Source: Pelagicoccus enzymogenes (GTDB taxonomy: Bacteria > Verrucomicrobiota > Verrucomicrobiia > Opitutales > Opitutaceae). Taken from it: a DNA stretch of 64,000 bases. Of this stretch, positions 50,431 through 58,693 are shown piece by piece. The position numbers were made by a program, and so were the translations under genes. The stretch covers positions 248,001 through 312,000 of the forward strand of contig NZ_JACYFG010000051.1 in NCBI RefSeq assembly GCF_014803405.1, read 5' to 3'. Position 1 is the stretch's first letter. Every line of letters starts with the position of its first letter. The notes under the pieces are model-generated. The model was not told the origin of the DNA and searched no databases. It saw nothing but the letters and a program-made list of their open reading frames with translations.

Positions 50431-51459
50431 ATGATCTCAGCTAAAAAGAACAATTTCATCGTAGAATACCGTCCTTCTGCGATTCGGGCTGCCCGCATCA
50501 GCTCGGAGACCGCCCCCACGGTCGTCGAGGAGGTCGTGGAGATCGACCTCGCGAAGGACGATTCCCCGGCCGAAACGATTCGCAAGTTCGCTCGGGCTAA
50601 GGCGAACGCCCACATGCATGCCTCCAGTTCGATCTACCCGGAAGATCGGCTTGTGCGCCAGGTGATGCTTGATGCCCAGAGGGGAAAGGAGGTCGATTTC
50701 GTAATGGATTTCCTCCGCAAATCGGGCGGCGTCAATCCCGAGACTTTCTCTGCGTATTGCCTGTCCGCTGCCGATGGAAGCGAGATCGATCTGGCTGCCT
50801 ACAACAAGAAGGACATTTTGGTCTGCGGAGTTTCGAAGCAAAGCGTGTCCGACACTCAAAGCCTTTTGTTGGAGCATGGGATTTATCCTCGCCGTCTCGA
50901 ACTTGGGACCTTGGGAACGATCGGGGCGCTGAAGGATGCGATTGGAACGGATGCGGGTCGCTCGCCAGTGCTGTTTCTAGAGATCGACAAGCAATCCACC
51001 AACGCTGTCATCGTGGGGCCGAGAGGGGTCGAGATGGCGCGTCGCATCGATTGCGGAGCGAACCATATCGCTCAAGCGCTCAAGGAGGAGATGAGTTTGA
51101 AGGACGAAGCCGCTGCGGAAAAAATCCTGCAGTCGAAAGACTTCGATTTGGGACCGATCGCTCCGAAGCTGTTGCGCAAGTTGCTTCGTGAGCTGCAAAG
51201 CTCGATTGGATTCTTCGAGGTCCAGACGGGGAGTTCCGTCTCCGAGCTCTACTGCTTAAAGGACGGTCGCTTTTTGCCATGGTTGGAGGCGAGTATCTGC
51301 GATTTGCTCAACTTGGTGCCCTTTCCGTTGGATTTGGGCGTTTGGCTGGAAAGCAAGGGGGTGACCTTTGCTTCCGAGGAAACGAAAAGCCAGGTGGACA
51401 ACACTTGGATCAGCCTCTTCTCGCTTGTCTTGGAGCTTGGAAAGGGAGGTGAGTCATGA
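50431..51459 (+). CDS. pilM: PilM-like type IV pilus inner-membrane-complex protein
   Basis: 342 aa, actin-like PilM fold: N-terminal FIVEYRPSAIRAARIS, FLEIDKQSTNAVIVGPRGVEMARRIDCGANHIAQAL segment as in FtsA/PilM nucleotide sites. Cytoplasmic platform that recruits PilN. ATGA overlap with the next gene (51456-51459) shows translational coupling. A diverged family member; the assignment is supported by gene order. Confidence 0.85.
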   Translation: MISAKKNNFIVEYRPSAIRAARISSETAPTVVEEVVEIDLAKDDSPAETIRKFARAKANAHMHASSSIYPEDRLVRQVMLDAQRGKEVDFVMDFLRKSGGVNPETFSAYCLSAADGSEIDLAAYNKKDILVCGVSKQSVSDTQSLLLEHGIYPRRLELGTLGTIGALKDAIGTDAGRSPVLFLEIDKQSTNAVIVGPRGVEMARRIDCGANHIAQALKEEMSLKDEAAAEKILQSKDFDLGPIAPKLLRKLLRELQSSIGFFEVQTGSSVSELYCLKDGRFLPWLEASICDLLNLVPFPLDLGVWLESKGVTFASEETKSQVDNTWISLFSLVLELGKGGES

Positions 51460-52064
51460 TCAAGCTGCCCAAGAAATCCGGTTCGGCTAGGAGCTACAAT
51501 TGGCGTCCGAATTTTCGGGACCTTGAAAGCCTTCCTGAGTCTCGAGTCGTACGCACACGCTTTTTCCTTCCCACTTTCGCGGTGGTCGTGGCATCGCTAT
51601 TTTCAGCCTACATTCTTTTCCAGGAGTACCGTGCCATGCGAATCGGCGAGGACATCAAGGTGCTCGAGGCGGAAATCGCCACCTACGAGGAGCGCCATGA
51701 CGAAAAGGTGAAGTACAATGCTGAATTCATGGAAATCAGCCGGAGGCTGAGCGAGGTCGTGGAGTTCAAGCAAGGACGGCTTGTCGCGAGCGACCTGCTC
51801 CTAAGCCTGTCTTCCCGCTTGCTGGATGGAATGTACCTGGAGCAGGTGGACTACATGGAGGGTAGGGCGAACATCCAAGGCAACGTTCTCGTTTCAGCTG
51901 AGGAAGCCTCTCGCCTCGTTAACGAGTATTTAAAGTCCATCGAAGAAGCGGATGTGATGCAGGGCTTGTTGGATGAGTACAAACTGACCTCCCTTGAGCG
52001 AGCTGGCGCAGGGAATGGAATCGTATTCCGGATCGAGGTCACCAAGAAGGAGGAAAAGAAATGA
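51456..52064 (+). CDS. pilN: PilN-like protein
   Basis: 202 aa. Short cytoplasmic N-terminus, one membrane helix (FFLPTFAVVVASLFSAYILF), coiled coil (DIKVLEAEIATYEERHDEKV) and a ferredoxin-like periplasmic domain. PilN dimerises with PilO. ATGA overlap with the next gene at 52061. Confidence 0.85.
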   Translation: MIKLPKKSGSARSYNWRPNFRDLESLPESRVVRTRFFLPTFAVVVASLFSAYILFQEYRAMRIGEDIKVLEAEIATYEERHDEKVKYNAEFMEISRRLSEVVEFKQGRLVASDLLLSLSSRLLDGMYLEQVDYMEGRANIQGNVLVSAEEASRLVNEYLKSIEEADVMQGLLDEYKLTSLERAGAGNGIVFRIEVTKKEEKK

Positions 52065-52651
52065 CCTTTTTATCGCTCTTTTCGTATTTGAAAAAGAACT
52101 ACATTGTTTCGATCTGCTCTTTGGTCGCGATTGTGTGCCTCGGTGTGTACCTCGTTCGTAGCGACCAGATTACACGGCTCGCCGCTGATTACGATGACTT
52201 GTCGGTGAGGCACTCGCGCATTCTCAAAAACTTGAAGTTCGGATCAGATATCGAAGCGGATCTGGACCGATTGAAAACGATGAGCGAGGAGATTGAAGCG
52301 CGTTTGTTTTCGCCTGAAGACCTCGCTACGAATCAACGATATTTCTATCAGATCGAATCTGCCACGGGGGTGGAGATGGCGAGTATTCAGCAGATCATTA
52401 AGCCGCTTCCAGAAGGGAAAAACAACAAGCAGGCGCGTATGAAAGCTGAGAGGTCTCCCTATCAGGAGATTATATATGATATGAGTGTTCAAGGTACGTA
52501 CACTGAGGTTTTGTCATTCCTGCGAGAAATAGAAGGCGGTGAAGCGTTCGCGGTACTAGATGGTTTCACCATAATGGATTCCAAAAGCAAGGAAGCTGAC
52601 CCTGAGGTCGACATACGTCTCTCAGTTAACGTTCTGGGGAGGAAGTCATAA
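52061..52651 (+). CDS. pilO: PilO-like protein
   Basis: 196 aa. One membrane helix (YIVSICSLVAIVCLGVYLV), coiled coil, then a periplasmic domain with ATGVEMASIQQIIKPLP and TEVLSFLREIEGGEAFAVLDGF, as in PilO. Shares one base with the next gene (TAATG, 52651). Base composition from here to 54861 is slightly more AT-rich than the genes around it. Confidence 0.85.
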   Translation: MTFLSLFSYLKKNYIVSICSLVAIVCLGVYLVRSDQITRLAADYDDLSVRHSRILKNLKFGSDIEADLDRLKTMSEEIEARLFSPEDLATNQRYFYQIESATGVEMASIQQIIKPLPEGKNNKQARMKAERSPYQEIIYDMSVQGTYTEVLSFLREIEGGEAFAVLDGFTIMDSKSKEADPEVDIRLSVNVLGRKS

Positions 52652-53115
52652 TGCAATTGGTTCGAAAATTGTCGTTAGTCGCAATTGCCCTTTCCTGTTT
52701 CTTGGGGGGCTTGCAGTCAGCCATCATGTCAGCCGAAGCCCGTATGAAAGCTTTGGATGATATCCAAGAAACGCTGAATAATAAGGTTCTTCCGATAGAG
52801 GAGGAGCTGATCGCAGTCGCGCCAAGTCCATTTGTTCCAGATAGCGGAAAGAAGGTTGTCGTAGAGGAGGAGGTCGAAGTCGTTCTAACCGATGAAGAAC
52901 TTCTCAAGGAATTAGCTAACTACGTAAACCCCACTGGCATATTCATGTTCGGTGGAGAATTTTATCTGATCTTCAAGGAGAAGAAGCTAAAGGTCGGTTC
53001 CGAATTGGGAATCACGTACAACGGCGCGAATTACAGTGTCGTTATAACAGAAATCACAGGATCTACATACAAAATCAGCCGTGGTGATTCGGAACTACAA
53101 CTAAAACTTAAGTAA
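52651..53115 (+). CDS. pilP: PilP-like periplasmic protein
   Basis: 154 aa. Signal-like N-terminus MQLVRKLSLVAIALSCFLGGLQS, then an acidic linker and a small beta-domain (VNPTGIFMFGGEFYLIFKEKKLKVGSE, ISRGDSELQLKLK) similar in shape to the PilP HP domain that contacts the secretin. Sequence similarity is weak; the position between pilO and pilQ is the main support. No lipobox is seen, unlike E. coli-type PilP. Confidence 0.7.
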   Translation: MQLVRKLSLVAIALSCFLGGLQSAIMSAEARMKALDDIQETLNNKVLPIEEELIAVAPSPFVPDSGKKVVVEEEVEVVLTDEELLKELANYVNPTGIFMFGGEFYLIFKEKKLKVGSELGITYNGANYSVVITEITGSTYKISRGDSELQLKLK

Positions 53116-54861
53116 ATGCGTTATATGAAGTCCAACATTATAAAATCAATTGCAGCGACCTCGATCGCTCTGGGTATTCCGCTTCTGCATGGTCAGGAAG
53201 CTCCGCCAGCTGGGACCGTTCGTGACGGTCTGGAAAAGTCGGCGTCGGTGGTCAAGGAACAGGAACCTTCCGGACCCAAGATAACCGATATTGACCGTTT
53301 GTTCGACAATCCAGCTGACAACCAGGTAGAGTCTGCGGAAGAGGGGAACGGCGTTTCAACGATTGATGATTCCTTTGCCTCTCCTATTGGAAATGAGATG
53401 GTTTTGGACGCGTCGGATTTGATATCGGTGGATTATCCCAACGAGGAGATTCGTACTGTTCTTCGGAATGTTGCGGATCTCTATATGTTGAATATCGTGG
53501 TGCCAGACACCCTTGTTGGAACTACGTCCATTAAGCTGCGTGACGTCACTTGGCGTCAGATCTATTCTGTTGTTTTGGAGCCTGTCGGGTATTCGTTTAT
53601 CGAGGAGGGCTCTATCATCAAGGTCGTTAGTCGCGACTCTTTGAACATCGAGCCGCCGATCACTGAGATCTTCATGGTTAATTACGCTGAGGCAGACTCG
53701 ATCGCTGTCACTCTTCGCAATCTTGTCGATTCGAGCAAGGGCGGCGCGGTACAAGTGGATCAGCGCAGCAACGCCCTGATCGTCTCGGAGCGCGCTTCCA
53801 AAATGGACAACATTCGTGCTGTGGTTGAGCGCTTGGATAAGCCTACTCAGCAGGTTTTTATCGAAACCCGCTTTATCGAAGTAACTGACACGGACGTAAA
53901 GAATATCGGTGTGAACTGGTCTACCTTGCGAAACTACGGTGTGGGCGTTGGCAACATTAACAAGCAGTGGGGGAGCTCTTTCGACAGGGCTCGCAGTGAA
54001 GGCGGAGATAGCGAGATCTCAAATCAACGTAACTTGGGTGATGTTGCTTTTACGAGCGGAGGTGCGGAGACGAGCGGTATGGGCGTGAATCGTGGTACTC
54101 TGACCAATAACTTGTCAGGAGAAACCTTGATCGATATGACCTCTACTGGGGAAAGCACTCTGATGACGCATGCTGTTAATAACCTGTATTCCCTTGTGGA
54201 TACGAAGGGAGTTACTCGTTCTGCGTCTGCTGTATTCTCAGCGGATCAATTCGGATTCGTTCTCAGCGCGTTGAAGGAGCAGGGTGGCAGCAAGCTGGTA
54301 TCTAACCCAACGGTCGTAACGCTCAACAACCAAGAGGCGACCATTAACGTGGGTGAAGAGTTTCCGATACCAAACTACCAATACAACGAAGAAACAGGTG
54401 GTTTCGAAGTAAGCAATTTTGAATACAAGCAGATTGGTGTGAACCTCAAGGTTACTCCCTCTGTGAACAATGCTGGCCTCATCAACCTCAAGGTTGTGCC
54501 GGAAGTTAGCAGCCGTACGGGGGTCGTGAGTTTCGGCGGCTCAGGCGGCGCTTCCATTCCGCTGATCTCTACCCGCAAGACGGAGACGCAAATTGCCCTG
54601 AAGGATGGCTTTACGATGGGTATTGGAGGCTTGATGGAGAGCTCTGACAACTCGGATGACAGCCAAGTGCCGGTTCTGGGCAAGGTTCCCGGTCTGGGAC
54701 GTTTGTTCAAGCATGAGTCCAAGCGTGAGACGAAGCGCAATCTACTCATCTTCATCACTGCAAAAATCCTTCCAAGCGAGGAAGCTGACTTTGAGGACGT
54801 ATTCTCGCAGGAAATGATGGAAGCGTCTGGAGTCGACCCGGTTGCCTTGAGGAACCGCTAG
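53116..54861 (+). CDS. pilQ: PilQ-like type IV pilus secretin
   Basis: 581 aa. Signal peptide MRYMKSNIIKSIAATSIALGIPLLHGQ, a flexible N-terminus, an N0/N1 region (VDYPNEEIRTVLRNVADLYMLNIVVPDTLVGTTS), an N1/N3 region (DSIAVTLRNLVDSSKGGAVQVDQRSNALIVSER) and the secretin domain with SKLVSNPTVVTLNNQEATINVGEEFPIP and VPVLGKVPGLGRLFKH. Outer-membrane pore for the pilus. Shorter than proteobacterial PilQ, lacking AMIN domains. Terminator at 54898-54931 ends the operon. Confidence 0.95.
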   Translation: MRYMKSNIIKSIAATSIALGIPLLHGQEAPPAGTVRDGLEKSASVVKEQEPSGPKITDIDRLFDNPADNQVESAEEGNGVSTIDDSFASPIGNEMVLDASDLISVDYPNEEIRTVLRNVADLYMLNIVVPDTLVGTTSIKLRDVTWRQIYSVVLEPVGYSFIEEGSIIKVVSRDSLNIEPPITEIFMVNYAEADSIAVTLRNLVDSSKGGAVQVDQRSNALIVSERASKMDNIRAVVERLDKPTQQVFIETRFIEVTDTDVKNIGVNWSTLRNYGVGVGNINKQWGSSFDRARSEGGDSEISNQRNLGDVAFTSGGAETSGMGVNRGTLTNNLSGETLIDMTSTGESTLMTHAVNNLYSLVDTKGVTRSASAVFSADQFGFVLSALKEQGGSKLVSNPTVVTLNNQEATINVGEEFPIPNYQYNEETGGFEVSNFEYKQIGVNLKVTPSVNNAGLINLKVVPEVSSRTGVVSFGGSGGASIPLISTRKTETQIALKDGFTMGIGGLMESSDNSDDSQVPVLGKVPGLGRLFKHESKRETKRNLLIFITAKILPSEEADFEDVFSQEMMEASGVDPVALRNR

Positions 54862-54936: not shown

Positions 54937-55356
54937 CTACTCGCCGATCACGGTCACGATCAAGGAGCGGGAGTGGGGAGCGGTACGATGTTCCCAGAGG
55001 AAGATTCCTTGCCAGGTGCCAAGGAGGAGGCGGCCTTCGGCGAAGGGCACGACCTCTGCGCTGCGTGTTAGTGCCATTTTTATGTGGCTTGGCATGTCGT
55101 CTGGACCCTCGTAGGTATGGGTGAAGTGCCGGTCGTTTTCCGGAACGAGCCGACTCATGAAGCCTTCCAGGTCATGTCTGGCGCTCGGATCGGCGTTCTC
55201 CATGAGCACGAGGCTGCAGCTTGTGTGTCGGCAAAAGACGGTGACGGTACCGTTTTTGAGGCCGCTCTCGCGAATCGCATTACGAGCTTGGTCGGTGATC
55301 TCCAAGGTTCCCTGACCTTGGGTACGGACATTGATCTCGGAGTGGTAAACTGCCAT
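54937..55356 (-). CDS. yjbQ: YjbQ/UPF0047 protein
   Basis: 139 aa small barrel-like enzyme with QARNAIRESGLKNGTVTVFCRHTSCSLVLMENAD and HTYEGPDDMPSHIK motifs, the conserved His residues of the family. E. coli YjbQ has weak thiamine-phosphate synthase activity. Last gene of the ECF-sigma operon, 18 bp after the HtrA-like gene; the link to envelope stress is unknown. Confidence 0.9.
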   Translation of the reverse strand: MAVYHSEINVRTQGQGTLEITDQARNAIRESGLKNGTVTVFCRHTSCSLVLMENADPSARHDLEGFMSRLVPENDRHFTHTYEGPDDMPSHIKMALTRSAEVVPFAEGRLLLGTWQGIFLWEHRTAPHSRSLIVTVIGE

Positions 55357-55374
55357 AGGCGGAATGCTTGCCGC

Positions 55375-56376
55375 TTATCCGTCCGTGAGCAACAACGCGA
55401 TTTCCGATTCTGTCTCGCCCCTTTGAACCGTAATGCTGACGAACTGTTCGGCTTGGCTGGAGAATAGGGCGTCTCGCCATTCGTTGATGCTGGAAATGGG
55501 CTTGCTTTCGAAACTTAGGATCTGATCGCCTCGTTTTAAGCCGCTCTTTTTAGCCGCGCTGCCTGTCTCGATCTCGGAGACCACCAAGCTGCGCTCCAGT
55601 GTGATTGGGTCGATTCTCTCGATGATCTTGGCATCAAGACTTGGGTGAAAGACTTTCCCCTTTGCCAGGAGCTGGTCCACTATGTGTTTCAGCGAGGCGT
55701 TCGGGACAATGTAGCTTGAATTCACGTCTGGCAGCGATGCGACGCTCATTCCCATGAGGGATCCGTCGCTGGCGAAGACGGGCGAACCTCCCTCTGCAGG
55801 TCCGGATGAGATTCCGATGCGAAGGTAGGAGCAGGGGAAGTCAATCTGGCTGAAGCTGCTTTCTCTGCCGGTGACGATTCCGAGTTTTGGCGTGGGCGCG
55901 AGGTCAAGCGGGCTTGTGATCGCGTAGGCGAGGGAGCCGATGGCGGGTGGCGGAAGGGCGTTGGCTAGATCGACGTATTGTATGCCAGCGGGTGGTTTTG
56001 CGACCTGAAGCAAAGCGATGTTGCTTCGCGCGTCCGAAGCGATGGGAACGGCCAGCATCTGCAAGCCGTCCTTCTCCACTCTCAGGCGAGGCCCTTTTTG
56101 GGTGGGTACCGCATTGGTGAGAACGGTGCCTTTGGCGTCGATGTAAAATCCGGATTGGACGGTGAGAGCTATCTTTTCCTTGCCGTTCTCGTCTGTCGTT
56201 TGAGTGGCGAACTTAACCTTTACGACCGTCGGGCGATAGTCGCGGTAGAGTTGGATGAGGCGGTTTTCGCCGGGGACGAGCTCTTGGCTGGCTAGGGCTG
56301 GATTGGGCGGTGCACCACTCGCAGCCGCGACGAGCGTGACGCTCGTCAAAGCGATTAGTCCGACGCGGCGAAGCAT
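55375..56376 (-). CDS. HtrA-like protein with lost catalytic triad
   Basis: 333 aa. Signal peptide MLRRVGLIALTSVTLVAAASGA, trypsin-like domain and a C-terminal PDZ domain (GSAAKKSGLKRGDQILSFESKPISSINEWRD). In HtrA the His lies in TNxHVV, the Asp in D-x-x-D-L/I-A and the Ser in GNSGGP. Here these are LTNAVPTQ (no His), SDARSNIALL (Asn for Asp) and GPAEGGSPVF (no GNSGG), so it should not be a protease. Likely a regulatory or chaperone relic in the stress operon, 4 bp after the preceding gene. Confidence 0.8.
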   Translation of the reverse strand: MLRRVGLIALTSVTLVAAASGAPPNPALASQELVPGENRLIQLYRDYRPTVVKVKFATQTTDENGKEKIALTVQSGFYIDAKGTVLTNAVPTQKGPRLRVEKDGLQMLAVPIASDARSNIALLQVAKPPAGIQYVDLANALPPPAIGSLAYAITSPLDLAPTPKLGIVTGRESSFSQIDFPCSYLRIGISSGPAEGGSPVFASDGSLMGMSVASLPDVNSSYIVPNASLKHIVDQLLAKGKVFHPSLDAKIIERIDPITLERSLVVSEIETGSAAKKSGLKRGDQILSFESKPISSINEWRDALFSSQAEQFVSITVQRGETESEIALLLTDG

Positions 56377-56380
56377 TCTG

Positions 56381-56941
56381 CTAGTAGTTTGGCTGCTGGC
56401 GTAGGACGTTTGCCCCGTTCGTGAGCCCGACGGAGTCGCGGGAGTAAGTGACTGGCGTCGCGTTGAGCAAGTACCCTTCGTCTTTGCTGCCGAGGCTGCT
56501 GAGAGCGTTGACTTGGTAGATCGTATTGCGGTTAGGCGCTTCGTCCTGCGCGGGGACGGCGACTTCTGTGTTTACGACGAAGTAGGCGGGGGGCGTCTCG
56601 TTCTTTTCGGCCGACGCCAAGGGGATGCGCTCTGGTTTGAGCTCTGCCTCAGTCGAATCTGCCAGGTAGGGCGAATTCGTGACTGCGAAAAAGGTGATCG
56701 CTACAGCGCCGGCGGCCGCCACCGGGGGAGCTGCCTTGCGGGCCAAGATCATGCAGGCGCGGCGGAGGCGCGTGCTGACGGGTTGGATTTGCACGAAGGT
56801 GGTGAGCTGCCGGCTGCGAAACTCTTGGTCGAAGCGTTGCCAGTAGGCTGCGTCCGGACGCTCCAGCTGCTTGAGCTTTATGAGTTGGCTCAGGCGTTGG
56901 TCGGCGTTGGTTGCGGAAGCGGTTTGTGGGTGGGCGCTCAT
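56381..56941 (-). CDS. Single-pass membrane protein, putative anti-sigma factor
   Basis: 186 aa. Cytoplasmic N-terminus with helices (DQRLSQLIKLKQLERPDAAYWQRFDQEFRS), one membrane helix (KAAPPVAAAGAVAITFFAV, residues about 70-88) and a periplasmic tail. Located 10 bp after the ECF sigma factor and 4 bp before the HtrA-like gene, which is the position of an anti-sigma factor, though no zinc-finger (HxxxCxxC) or RseA-like motif is seen. Function inferred from position only. Confidence 0.6.
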   Translation of the reverse strand: MSAHPQTASATNADQRLSQLIKLKQLERPDAAYWQRFDQEFRSRQLTTFVQIQPVSTRLRRACMILARKAAPPVAAAGAVAITFFAVTNSPYLADSTEAELKPERIPLASAEKNETPPAYFVVNTEVAVPAQDEAPNRNTIYQVNALSSLGSKDEGYLLNATPVTYSRDSVGLTNGANVLRQQPNY

Positions 56942-56951
56942 CGATGTCGGG

Positions 56952-57581
56952 CTACTGCACGTAGTCTTTCAGTTCGGCTTGCAAAAATTGTTTGGCGTAG
57001 TGGAGGCGGGAGCGGACGGTCCCGACAGAGGTGCCGACGATTTCGGCGATTTCCTTGTGGCTGAGTCCGTCGATTTCGTAGAGGGTGATGACGGTTCGGT
57101 GCTTGACGGAGAGCTTTTGGAAGGCGTCGTTGAGCTTTTCTTGAAGCTCGTTCATCAGCGTATTCTTATCCGAGTCGGAGTCGGTCTTCAATTGCTCGAT
57201 GAAGCCTGCGGAGTGGTCCTCTTCGTTCATCTTCTCGAAGCTGAAGAAGCGGCGCAGCTTGTTTTTGCGAAGATGGGTAAGGGTTGTGTTCAGGGCGATG
57301 CGGTAGAGCCAGGTGAAGAAACTGGATTTGCCTTTGAACCTGCCGATCGATTGGAAGGCCTTGATGAACGCGTCTTGGGTGAGGTCCGAGGCGTCTTCGC
57401 GATTGGAGGTGAGGTTGTAGACGACAGAGTAGATGCGTTCGCGGTATTTCGTGACAAGCTCGTCGAAGGCGTCGACGTCGCCGGCCTGAACCTTGTGCAC
57501 GATAGCAAGGTCCTCGTCGGCCTCCTGACGCCTTTCCGGCGTGGAAACCAAGGTCTGTTTTATGGCCTTGCTGATGCTCAT
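56952..57581 (-). CDS. ECF-type RNA polymerase sigma factor
   Basis: 209 aa. Region 2 (VQAGDVDAFDELVTKYRERIYSVVYNLTSNREDASDLTQDAFIKAF) with the -10-recognition helix, and region 4 (KLSVKHRTVITLYEIDGLSHKEIAEIVGTSVGTVRSRLHYAKQFLQ). RpoE-like. First gene of a four-gene operon with the membrane protein, the HtrA-like protein and YjbQ. Likely autoregulated; no promoter was proven. Confidence 0.95.
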   Translation of the reverse strand: MSISKAIKQTLVSTPERRQEADEDLAIVHKVQAGDVDAFDELVTKYRERIYSVVYNLTSNREDASDLTQDAFIKAFQSIGRFKGKSSFFTWLYRIALNTTLTHLRKNKLRRFFSFEKMNEEDHSAGFIEQLKTDSDSDKNTLMNELQEKLNDAFQKLSVKHRTVITLYEIDGLSHKEIAEIVGTSVGTVRSRLHYAKQFLQAELKDYVQ

Positions 57582-57676: not shown

Positions 57677-58693
57677 CTAGAGGGCGTCCACTTGGTTCCA
57701 TAGGAGTTCGCTGATGGTTCGCAGATGGGCGGCGGAGGGGTTGTCCTCGAACGATTGGATGGCGGCGCGGCCTTTGGCGATCTCGTCGAAAATGGCTTGG
57801 CGAACCTCCTCGAAGATTCCCATCTCGCGGAGCTTGGCGAGCCAGTAGGGAACGTCGGCCTCGGTTTTTCCGGCCAGCGCGTCGCGGAGGGCTTGGGATT
57901 CCTCGGCTGGCAGCCGGTCTCGCATGAGGATGAGCGGCATGGTGGGTTTGCCGGTGGCGATGTCCGTTCCGAGCGTCTTGCCTATCTTTTCTTGCGATCC
58001 GAAAAGGTCGGTCATGTCGTCGTAGATCTGGTAGGCGATGCCGAGGTGGCGTCCGAAGGAACCGGCTGCCTTCACGTATTCGTCGCTGAAACCAGCGAGT
58101 CGGGCTCCGAGGTGACAGGAGACGCGAAAGAGCTCTGCGGTTTTGAGATCGATGACGCGGAAGTAGGTTTCCATGTCGAGGTTCGGGTCGCCTCGCTGCA
58201 TGGTTTGCAGGATTTCGCCGGTGCAGACTTGGCGCATGGAAACAGCGATGTCGCGGCAGACTTCCGTGGTGGGGAACTGGGTGGCGAGGTAGACCGCATG
58301 GGAAAAGAGGGCGTCGCCCAGGAGAACGGCCGTGGCGTTGTTGTATTTCTTGGCGACGGTGGCTCGGTTGCGGCGGATCTCCGCTTCGTCCATGATGTCG
58401 TCGTGCACGAGGGTGGCGAGGTGGATGGTTTCCACGACCGCTGCGAGGCGGACGAGCTTTTCGTCGACTTCCGAATTTTTGTTCCAGCCGCTGAAGAAGA
58501 TGAGGGAGGGGCGGATGCGCTTGCCTCCGGTGTCCATGCTGTAGGCGACGTGCTCGCGAATCTCAGGCTCGAAAGCGGCGATCTGCTGCTCGAGGAAAGC
58601 GTCCAGCGCCTTCAAGTGCGGCTGGAGTAGCTGGAAGAGCTCGGGCAGTTGCTTTGAGGTATCCGAGCCTTGGGTCTGAGTCGTGTTTTGCAT
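57677..58693 (-). CDS. ispB: Long-chain polyprenyl diphosphate synthase
   Basis: 338 aa, all-helical prenyltransferase. First Asp-rich motif LVHDDIMDEAEIRRNRAT and second IYDDMTDLFGSQEKIGK, plus GGKRIRPSL. The residues before the first motif (HLATLVHDD) have no bulky block, so a chain of 40 carbons or more is expected, for quinones. E. coli IspB makes octaprenyl. Monocistronic, with KdsD-type gene upstream on the same strand. Confidence 0.9.
   Translation of the reverse strand: MQNTTQTQGSDTSKQLPELFQLLQPHLKALDAFLEQQIAAFEPEIREHVAYSMDTGGKRIRPSLIFFSGWNKNSEVDEKLVRLAAVVETIHLATLVHDDIMDEAEIRRNRATVAKKYNNATAVLLGDALFSHAVYLATQFPTTEVCRDIAVSMRQVCTGEILQTMQRGDPNLDMETYFRVIDLKTAELFRVSCHLGARLAGFSDEYVKAAGSFGRHLGIAYQIYDDMTDLFGSQEKIGKTLGTDIATGKPTMPLILMRDRLPAEESQALRDALAGKTEADVPYWLAKLREMGIFEEVRQAIFDEIAKGRAAIQSFEDNPSAAHLRTISELLWNQVDAL

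Follow-up and report, generated by a model that had tools for sequence, protein, structure and literature searches.

A protease-dead HtrA-like protein in a conserved ECF sigma factor operon of Pelagicoccus enzymogenes as a possible non-cleaving regulator

What might a protein with the fold of an HtrA protease, but with none of the residues by which such a protease cuts, be doing in the operon of a sigma factor? The question is raised by three genes in a stretch of 64,000 nucleotides from Pelagicoccus enzymogenes (contig NZ_JACYFG010000051.1, positions 248,001 to 312,000; the whole stretch is called the window here). They encode an extracytoplasmic function (ECF) sigma factor, a single-pass membrane protein and an HtrA-like protein, and lie at window positions 55375-57581 on the minus strand as a tight operon, with 10 bases between the sigma and single-pass genes and 4 bases between the single-pass and HtrA-like genes (Table 1). 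An earlier note on this DNA had described an ECF sigma operon with a protease-dead HtrA-like protein here, and the genes were found where it had placed them.

The fold of the HtrA (Do) family, a trypsin-like domain followed by a PDZ domain, was recovered by Pfam, by profile, by the predicted model and by fold matches. Against Pfam the HtrA-like protein scored 46.6 bits with Trypsin_2 (cut-off 27.6) and 40.4 bits with PDZ_2 (cut-off 27). Its model (predicted local distance difference test, pLDDT, 88.3; predicted template modelling score, pTM, 0.82) aligned, among the 50 matches listed, to DegP, DegQ, DegS and other HtrAs with Foldseek E-values of 2.4e-23 to 5.1e-19 and with structural-alignment Z-scores of 29.8 to 24.5. 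The closest solved structures by profile and fold, among the matches listed, are DegP and DegQ, from which the protein differs in having one PDZ domain instead of two and no triad. Matches to the NCBIfam models for the Do family, DegP, DegQ and DegS all fell far under the cut-offs (56.6 bits vs 422.95 for the DegS equivalog). The N-terminus carries a hydrophobic segment (residues 5-23) that by eye resembles a signal peptide, and the named relatives of the protein come from Pelagicoccus (four) and from Verrucomicrobiae bacterium DG1235 (one). The protein does not have the His-Asp-Ser triad of an HtrA serine protease: the three positions are occupied by V90, N119 and G196, within the motifs NAVPTQ, SNIALL and AEGGSP. 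The earlier note had thus read both the domains and the lost triad correctly.

It had also proposed aligning orthologues, with the expectation that the triad would be absent in all, and the alignment agreed. None of 113 orthologues, drawn from several orders, has a complete triad or even two of its residues. His was found at its position in 0 of 112 scored rows, Asp in 1 of 113 (Asn in 89) and Ser in 9 of 112 (Gly in 77); these counts include partial open reading frames (ORFs), e.g. L024, L048 and L084, and proteins identical over the last 100 residues, as well as the distant loci L027-L030, were dropped from the rows. In the same alignment the full triad was present at 23 of 27 comparison loci (one gene being counted twice), the other four consisting of two unlinked dead HtrAs (L203 and L204), one unscorable locus (L029) and a PDZ protein without a protease part (L227). 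Fifteen additional proteins divide into nine with the complete triad and six that represent fragments or second PDZ proteins. A tree built from 72 rows has a single branch (support 100/98) that splits 40 dead from 32 active HtrAs; the dead rows are 38 of the 113 orthologues together with L203 and L204, and the tree omits L029, L227 and five second PDZ proteins (L258-L262) that lack the triad but are of another kind. Judged from these sequences, the loss of the triad is old and lies in one clade, in which the gene has been retained. Two further observations concern other HtrAs. The unlinked active HtrAs L205 and L206, from a family outside the class (f50), are nearer the profile of the dead family than the usual DegP-like protein is, and the tree groups them with the active proteins. 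Loci L258-L262 represent five genomes (four of family f33, and G614) in which an active HtrA, 321 to 361 residues long, adjoins a second PDZ protein whose protease-like domain is partial and lacks the triad, a separate pair of active and inactive proteins.

The operon was found to be widely conserved. A first set of 57 genomes, including that of the window, yielded 26 close HtrA orthologues (L001-L026, E 3e-30 or better), and the sigma and single-pass genes adjoin the HtrA gene at 25 of these 26 loci. A profile of the single-pass protein matches 229 of 372 genomes of the order (E 0.01). At 80 further loci, which were picked for the single-pass gene and include HtrA-less ones on purpose, the sigma gene adjoins the single-pass gene in 79, the sole miss being a locus where the contig ends (L130), and HtrA is linked in 55. 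When 387 genomes were drawn from across the phylum, the single-pass profile matched 85 of them at E 0.001, of which 32 lie outside the order. The 37 loci fetched comprise five orphan paralogues of the order and 32 loci from outside it, the latter again picked for the single-pass gene; outside the order the gene lies beside a sigma gene in 31 of 32 loci, and HtrA is linked in 21 of those 31. Flanks of about 1.5 to 3 kb were examined for HtrA linkage, and loci L141-L160 fall outside the analysis.

Both the tree and the operon bear on whether the HtrA-like gene is simply on its way out. The single branch with support 100/98 argues that the gene is not decaying, and two candidate explanations, a decaying gene and an active protease that uses other residues, were rejected on the triad counts together with the single old clade. 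We likewise consider it very improbable that the HtrA-like protein stands outside sigma control and is a protease in decay or one with unusual catalysis. The nine relatives that keep Ser are in favour of this, as is one genome (L012) that retains the HtrA gene without adjoining sigma and middle genes; however, the single old clade is kept in the operon across several orders, and two triad residues never co-occur in orthologues.

The first gene encodes an ECF sigma factor, with 126.9 bits against the sigma70-ECF model TIGR02937 (cut-off 42.9), that is not RpoE proper (149.8 bits against TIGR02939, below the cut-off of 236.15). The earlier note had suggested the adjacent single-pass protein as its anti-sigma factor. 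The linkage at 25 of 26 loci and the build of the protein are consistent with this, and the protein is presumed here to be a membrane anti-sigma factor; inhibition of the sigma factor is predicted from linkage and build. No match to Pfam or NCBIfam was obtained at E 1, RseA and other curated anti-sigma models included, and no anti-sigma family was present among the 24 Pfam families weakly matched by 77 relatives. Assignment to an anti-sigma family by sequence was given up, as Pfam, NCBIfam and solved structures yielded nothing usable. The predicted model (pTM 0.32) has helices at residues 7-26, 31-49 and 55-88 and no structure thereafter, so that two helices precede the membrane helix. Class II anti-sigma factors (CnrY-like) have a short, two-helix sigma-binding part. 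One hydrophobic segment is present in 120 of 132 relatives, and K24, E27, P29, W34 and F37 are invariant in 24 aligned relatives; the 77 alignment rows and the 132 proteins were selected by motif (four without it were dropped), and the fixed residues were taken from the 24-row alignment only. A longer, orphan relative is also present in the window's genome (L161:3627-4454; genome G000, contig C5, near 102156), with a tail, ..DALTVKF, that resembles an outer-membrane beta-signal and with no sigma hit near it in the 8 kb read; four other genomes have an orphan relative too (L162-L165).

Where HtrA is linked, the presumed anti-sigma factor nearly always ends in an aromatic residue. Among the 91 distinct tails from the order the last residue is F in 48, Y in 38, N in two and L, K and M in one each, a total of 86 of 91 for F and Y, and outside the order F is the last residue in 21 of 21. 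Duplicates, judged by the last 60 residues, and ORFs open at a contig end were dropped. The seven positions before the last are not comparably constrained: no residue there is shared by more than 28 of the 91 tails. As background, F, Y or W ends 26 of 377 neighbouring ORFs, 4 of 139 sigma proteins and 0 of 113 HtrA proteins. Of the 17 families of the order, represented by 93 proteins and labelled by hand in this tally, 16 have the aromatic end; the one without it is f14, whose single member ends ..FSYK.

The earlier note had proposed that the dead HtrA could regulate by binding, and at the level of sequence the retained PDZ domain and the aromatic C-terminus of the partner are consistent with such a role. 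We give an even chance to the reading that it is a non-cleaving, RseB-positioned regulator whose PDZ domain holds the aromatic tail of the anti-sigma factor. The ECF sigma factor would be kept at the membrane by the single-pass anti-sigma factor, the periplasmic tail of which has an aromatic end, and the periplasmic pseudoprotease encoded in the same operon would bind that tail, most likely by its PDZ domain. Binding may set the stability or accessibility of the anti-sigma factor and control the access of other proteases, with the cutting left to an active protease and to the site-2 protease RseP, both of which would be encoded elsewhere (an RseP gene is present in the window's genome). Envelope stress would then displace the HtrA-like protein, for which the aromatic-ended C-termini of unfolded outer-membrane proteins are the obvious candidate competitors; the aromatic ends of most TonB-type receptors of the window's genome, counted below, are in favour of the proposal.

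Such an arrangement resembles the RpoE-RseA-RseB-DegS and AlgU-MucA-MucB-AlgW systems in having an ECF sigma factor, a single-pass protein and a periplasmic protein in one operon. In one account, the PDZ domain of AlgW/DegS binds aromatic C-termini of misplaced outer-membrane proteins, after which the anti-sigma factor is cut, and MucB/RseB shields the anti-sigma factor (PMC8545111). By analogy, the HtrA-type PDZ domain of the operon could read aromatic C-termini. In contrast to those pathways, the HtrA here is not expected to cut and its gene occupies what we take to be the operon place of RseB, not of DegS; no RseA or RseB match was found (the MucB/RseB family PF03888 has none in the window's genome, completeness 95.92), and the presumed anti-sigma factor itself bears the aromatic C-terminus. 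The analogy with DegS drawn in the earlier note is loose, given the lack of catalysis, the signal-peptide-like N-terminus and the presumed RseB position.

Loci without a linked dead HtrA provided a comparison. In two genomes of family f16 the tail ends in F and a dead HtrA is encoded elsewhere (L203, L204); in six f33 genomes the tails end in R, R, Q, R, R and Y, with no dead HtrA of the clade among the hits inspected. Both patterns fit a pairing of PDZ domain and tail. The tails from two f50 genomes have F and Y as their last residues, and each of these genomes encodes an unlinked active HtrA (L206, 352 residues; L205, 384 residues). Aromatic tails were counted in 109 of 114 cases with a dead HtrA vs 2 of 7 without (Fisher 2e-5), relatedness being ignored and 23 loci of the window's family (f1), described below, left out; L197, whose contig ends after the gene, was excluded. 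For f33, G614 and the HtrA-less branch formed by those 23 loci, part of the HtrA hits were inspected. The same loci bear on the alternative that the dead HtrA acts on a partner protease, by forming mixed trimers with an active HtrA or by recruiting and activating it (as MamO for MamE), in which case the tail would be a ligand of the active enzyme's PDZ domain. Active HtrAs with full triads do occur in the same genome (L224, L225; L264), and this alternative would account for tails that stay aromatic in spite of an absent dead HtrA or a decayed PDZ loop. However, the HtrAs found beside the operon, within flanks of about 1.5 to 3 kb, are of the dead kind, and in f33 five of six tails are non-aromatic although active HtrAs are present. 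We consider this alternative unlikely.

Several observations weigh against the proposal that the PDZ domain of the dead HtrA holds the tail. Among 111 carboxylate loops scored, 80 have the form W-hydrophobic-G-hydrophobic and 96 the form hydrophobic-G-hydrophobic; 14 of the 15 without the latter come from f1 and one is L092, and the f1 members L008 and L010 match the pattern only at a shifted G. The decay spans the whole f1 family, beyond the window's genus, yet f1 tails are still aromatic in 15 of 17, which weakens the pairing for the window's own protein. Five of the 91 HtrA-linked tails are not aromatic. In G614 (family f29, tail F) and G566 (tail Y) no dead HtrA was met among the hits inspected. 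At the 23 f1 loci, which have long anti-sigma factors and no adjoining HtrA (L131 and L140 are not among them), the tail ends in F in 22 and in L in one; in each of the 23, positions -1, -3 and -5 are large and hydrophobic and position -2 is K or R, a pattern that we take to be like the outer-membrane beta-signal. A whole-genome search in six of the genomes with these loci, and in three more from f1, gave an active HtrA as the best hit, the only hit inspected. When the 23 loci are included, 24 of 30 tails without a dead HtrA are aromatic (0.011, relatedness again ignored). G614 and the HtrA-less f1 branch indicate that an aromatic end can have another reader. At L012 the HtrA-like gene immediately follows that for polyprenyl synthetase; neither a sigma nor an anti-sigma hit was obtained at the locus, and that genome has no match to the single-pass profile. 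Finally, no conserved ECF promoter was found 5' of the operon by two-box word counts and the pattern GAAC-N14-18-[CG]GTC. This pattern occurs upstream of the sigma gene in 13 of 101 regions vs 2.46 expected in shuffles; all 13 belong to f1 and none to the remaining families, and the GAAC box of the window sits inside the last codons of the polyprenyl synthetase gene. Coding may explain the pattern, and autoregulation of the operon was not counted from it.

The tails of the HtrA-less f1 branch may have a different reader. They look like the ends of outer-membrane receptors encoded in the window's genome, where 26 of 30 ORFs taken for TonB-type receptors (31 matches; L246 in this tally is probably on the wrong strand) have F, Y or W as last residue. 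A profile search found no homology between the periplasmic part of this branch's long anti-sigma factors and the corresponding part of either the orphan paralogues or the short anti-sigma factors. The aromatic tail might be read by the outer-membrane assembly machine (BamA), or serve as a degron for a tail-specific protease, with the dead HtrA acting otherwise, for example by RseB-like shielding through its protease-like domain. The beta-signal-like ends of all 23 tails favour this explanation, as do the position of the HtrA gene in RseB's presumed place, the missing RseB match and the persistence of aromatic f1 tails beside a decayed PDZ loop. Where HtrA is linked, however, the -1/-3/-5 hydrophobic pattern is found in 4 of 91 tails within the order and 0 of 21 outside it; the constraint falls on the last residue alone, a better fit to a PDZ domain than to BamA, and we regard this explanation as rather unlikely. 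Possible, if doubtful, is a fuller version of the proposal that the dead HtrA holds the tail. In it, the anti-sigma factor would carry a mimic of an outer-membrane-protein C-terminus held by the dead HtrA, misfolded outer-membrane proteins would compete for the PDZ domain and release the anti-sigma factor, and one branch would have dropped HtrA, its tail becoming a complete beta-signal that the outer-membrane assembly machine might read directly.

HtrA pseudoproteases such as MamO, and ECF sigma factors with membrane anti-sigma factors, are already known. MamO, which was not included in the HtrA tree, shares with the protein studied here an HtrA scaffold with a degenerate active site, and has non-catalytic roles; it differs in that its role lies in magnetite formation and metal binding, and the abstract names no sigma factor (PMC4794232). 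Searches of the open-access literature turned up neither a sigma operon containing a dead HtrA nor an anti-sigma factor whose aromatic C-terminal residue is conserved. For the sensing of envelope damage in this phylum, the three-gene system offers a sharp prediction, resting on one terminal residue and one PDZ domain, and the branch that lost HtrA constitutes a natural experiment. If the proposal is correct, the operon would define a pathway in which a DegS-like sensor holds rather than cuts, and the few known HtrA pseudoproteases would gain one that is old and stably maintained.

Table 1. Features of the operon and its flanks in the window, with the evidence for each
Feature	Position in window	Strand	Basis
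ECF sigma factor, 209 residues	56952..57581	-	Sigma70_r2 and r4_2 matches over cut-off
Single-pass protein, 186 residues, presumed anti-sigma factor	56381..56941	-	Gene linkage, predicted build
Hydrophobic segment, residues 70-88 of presumed anti-sigma factor	56678..56734	-	Top 19-residue hydropathy 1.69
C-terminal Tyr186 of presumed anti-sigma factor	56384..56386	-	F/Y conserved where HtrA linked
Protease-dead HtrA-like protein, 333 residues	55375..56376	-	Trypsin_2 and PDZ matches, model, triad loss
Val90 codon, catalytic His position	56107..56109	-	Alignment; His in 0/112 scored rows
Asn119 codon, catalytic Asp position	56020..56022	-	Asn in 89/113
Gly196 codon, catalytic Ser position	55789..55791	-	Gly in 77/112
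PDZ domain, HtrA-like residues 259-328	55393..55602	-	PDZ_2 match
YjbQ (UPF0047), 3' neighbour of HtrA-like gene	54937..55356	-	
Polyprenyl synthetase gene, 5' neighbour of sigma gene	57677-58693		

Two further groups of genes were observed elsewhere in the window. A run of plus-strand ORFs at 50431-54861, ending with a PilQ/GspD-like secretin (53116-54861), is probably a cluster for the assembly of a type IV pilus or of a type II secretion system. Six matches to TonB-dependent receptors lie on the minus strand between 1334 and 27827, a span of 27 kb.
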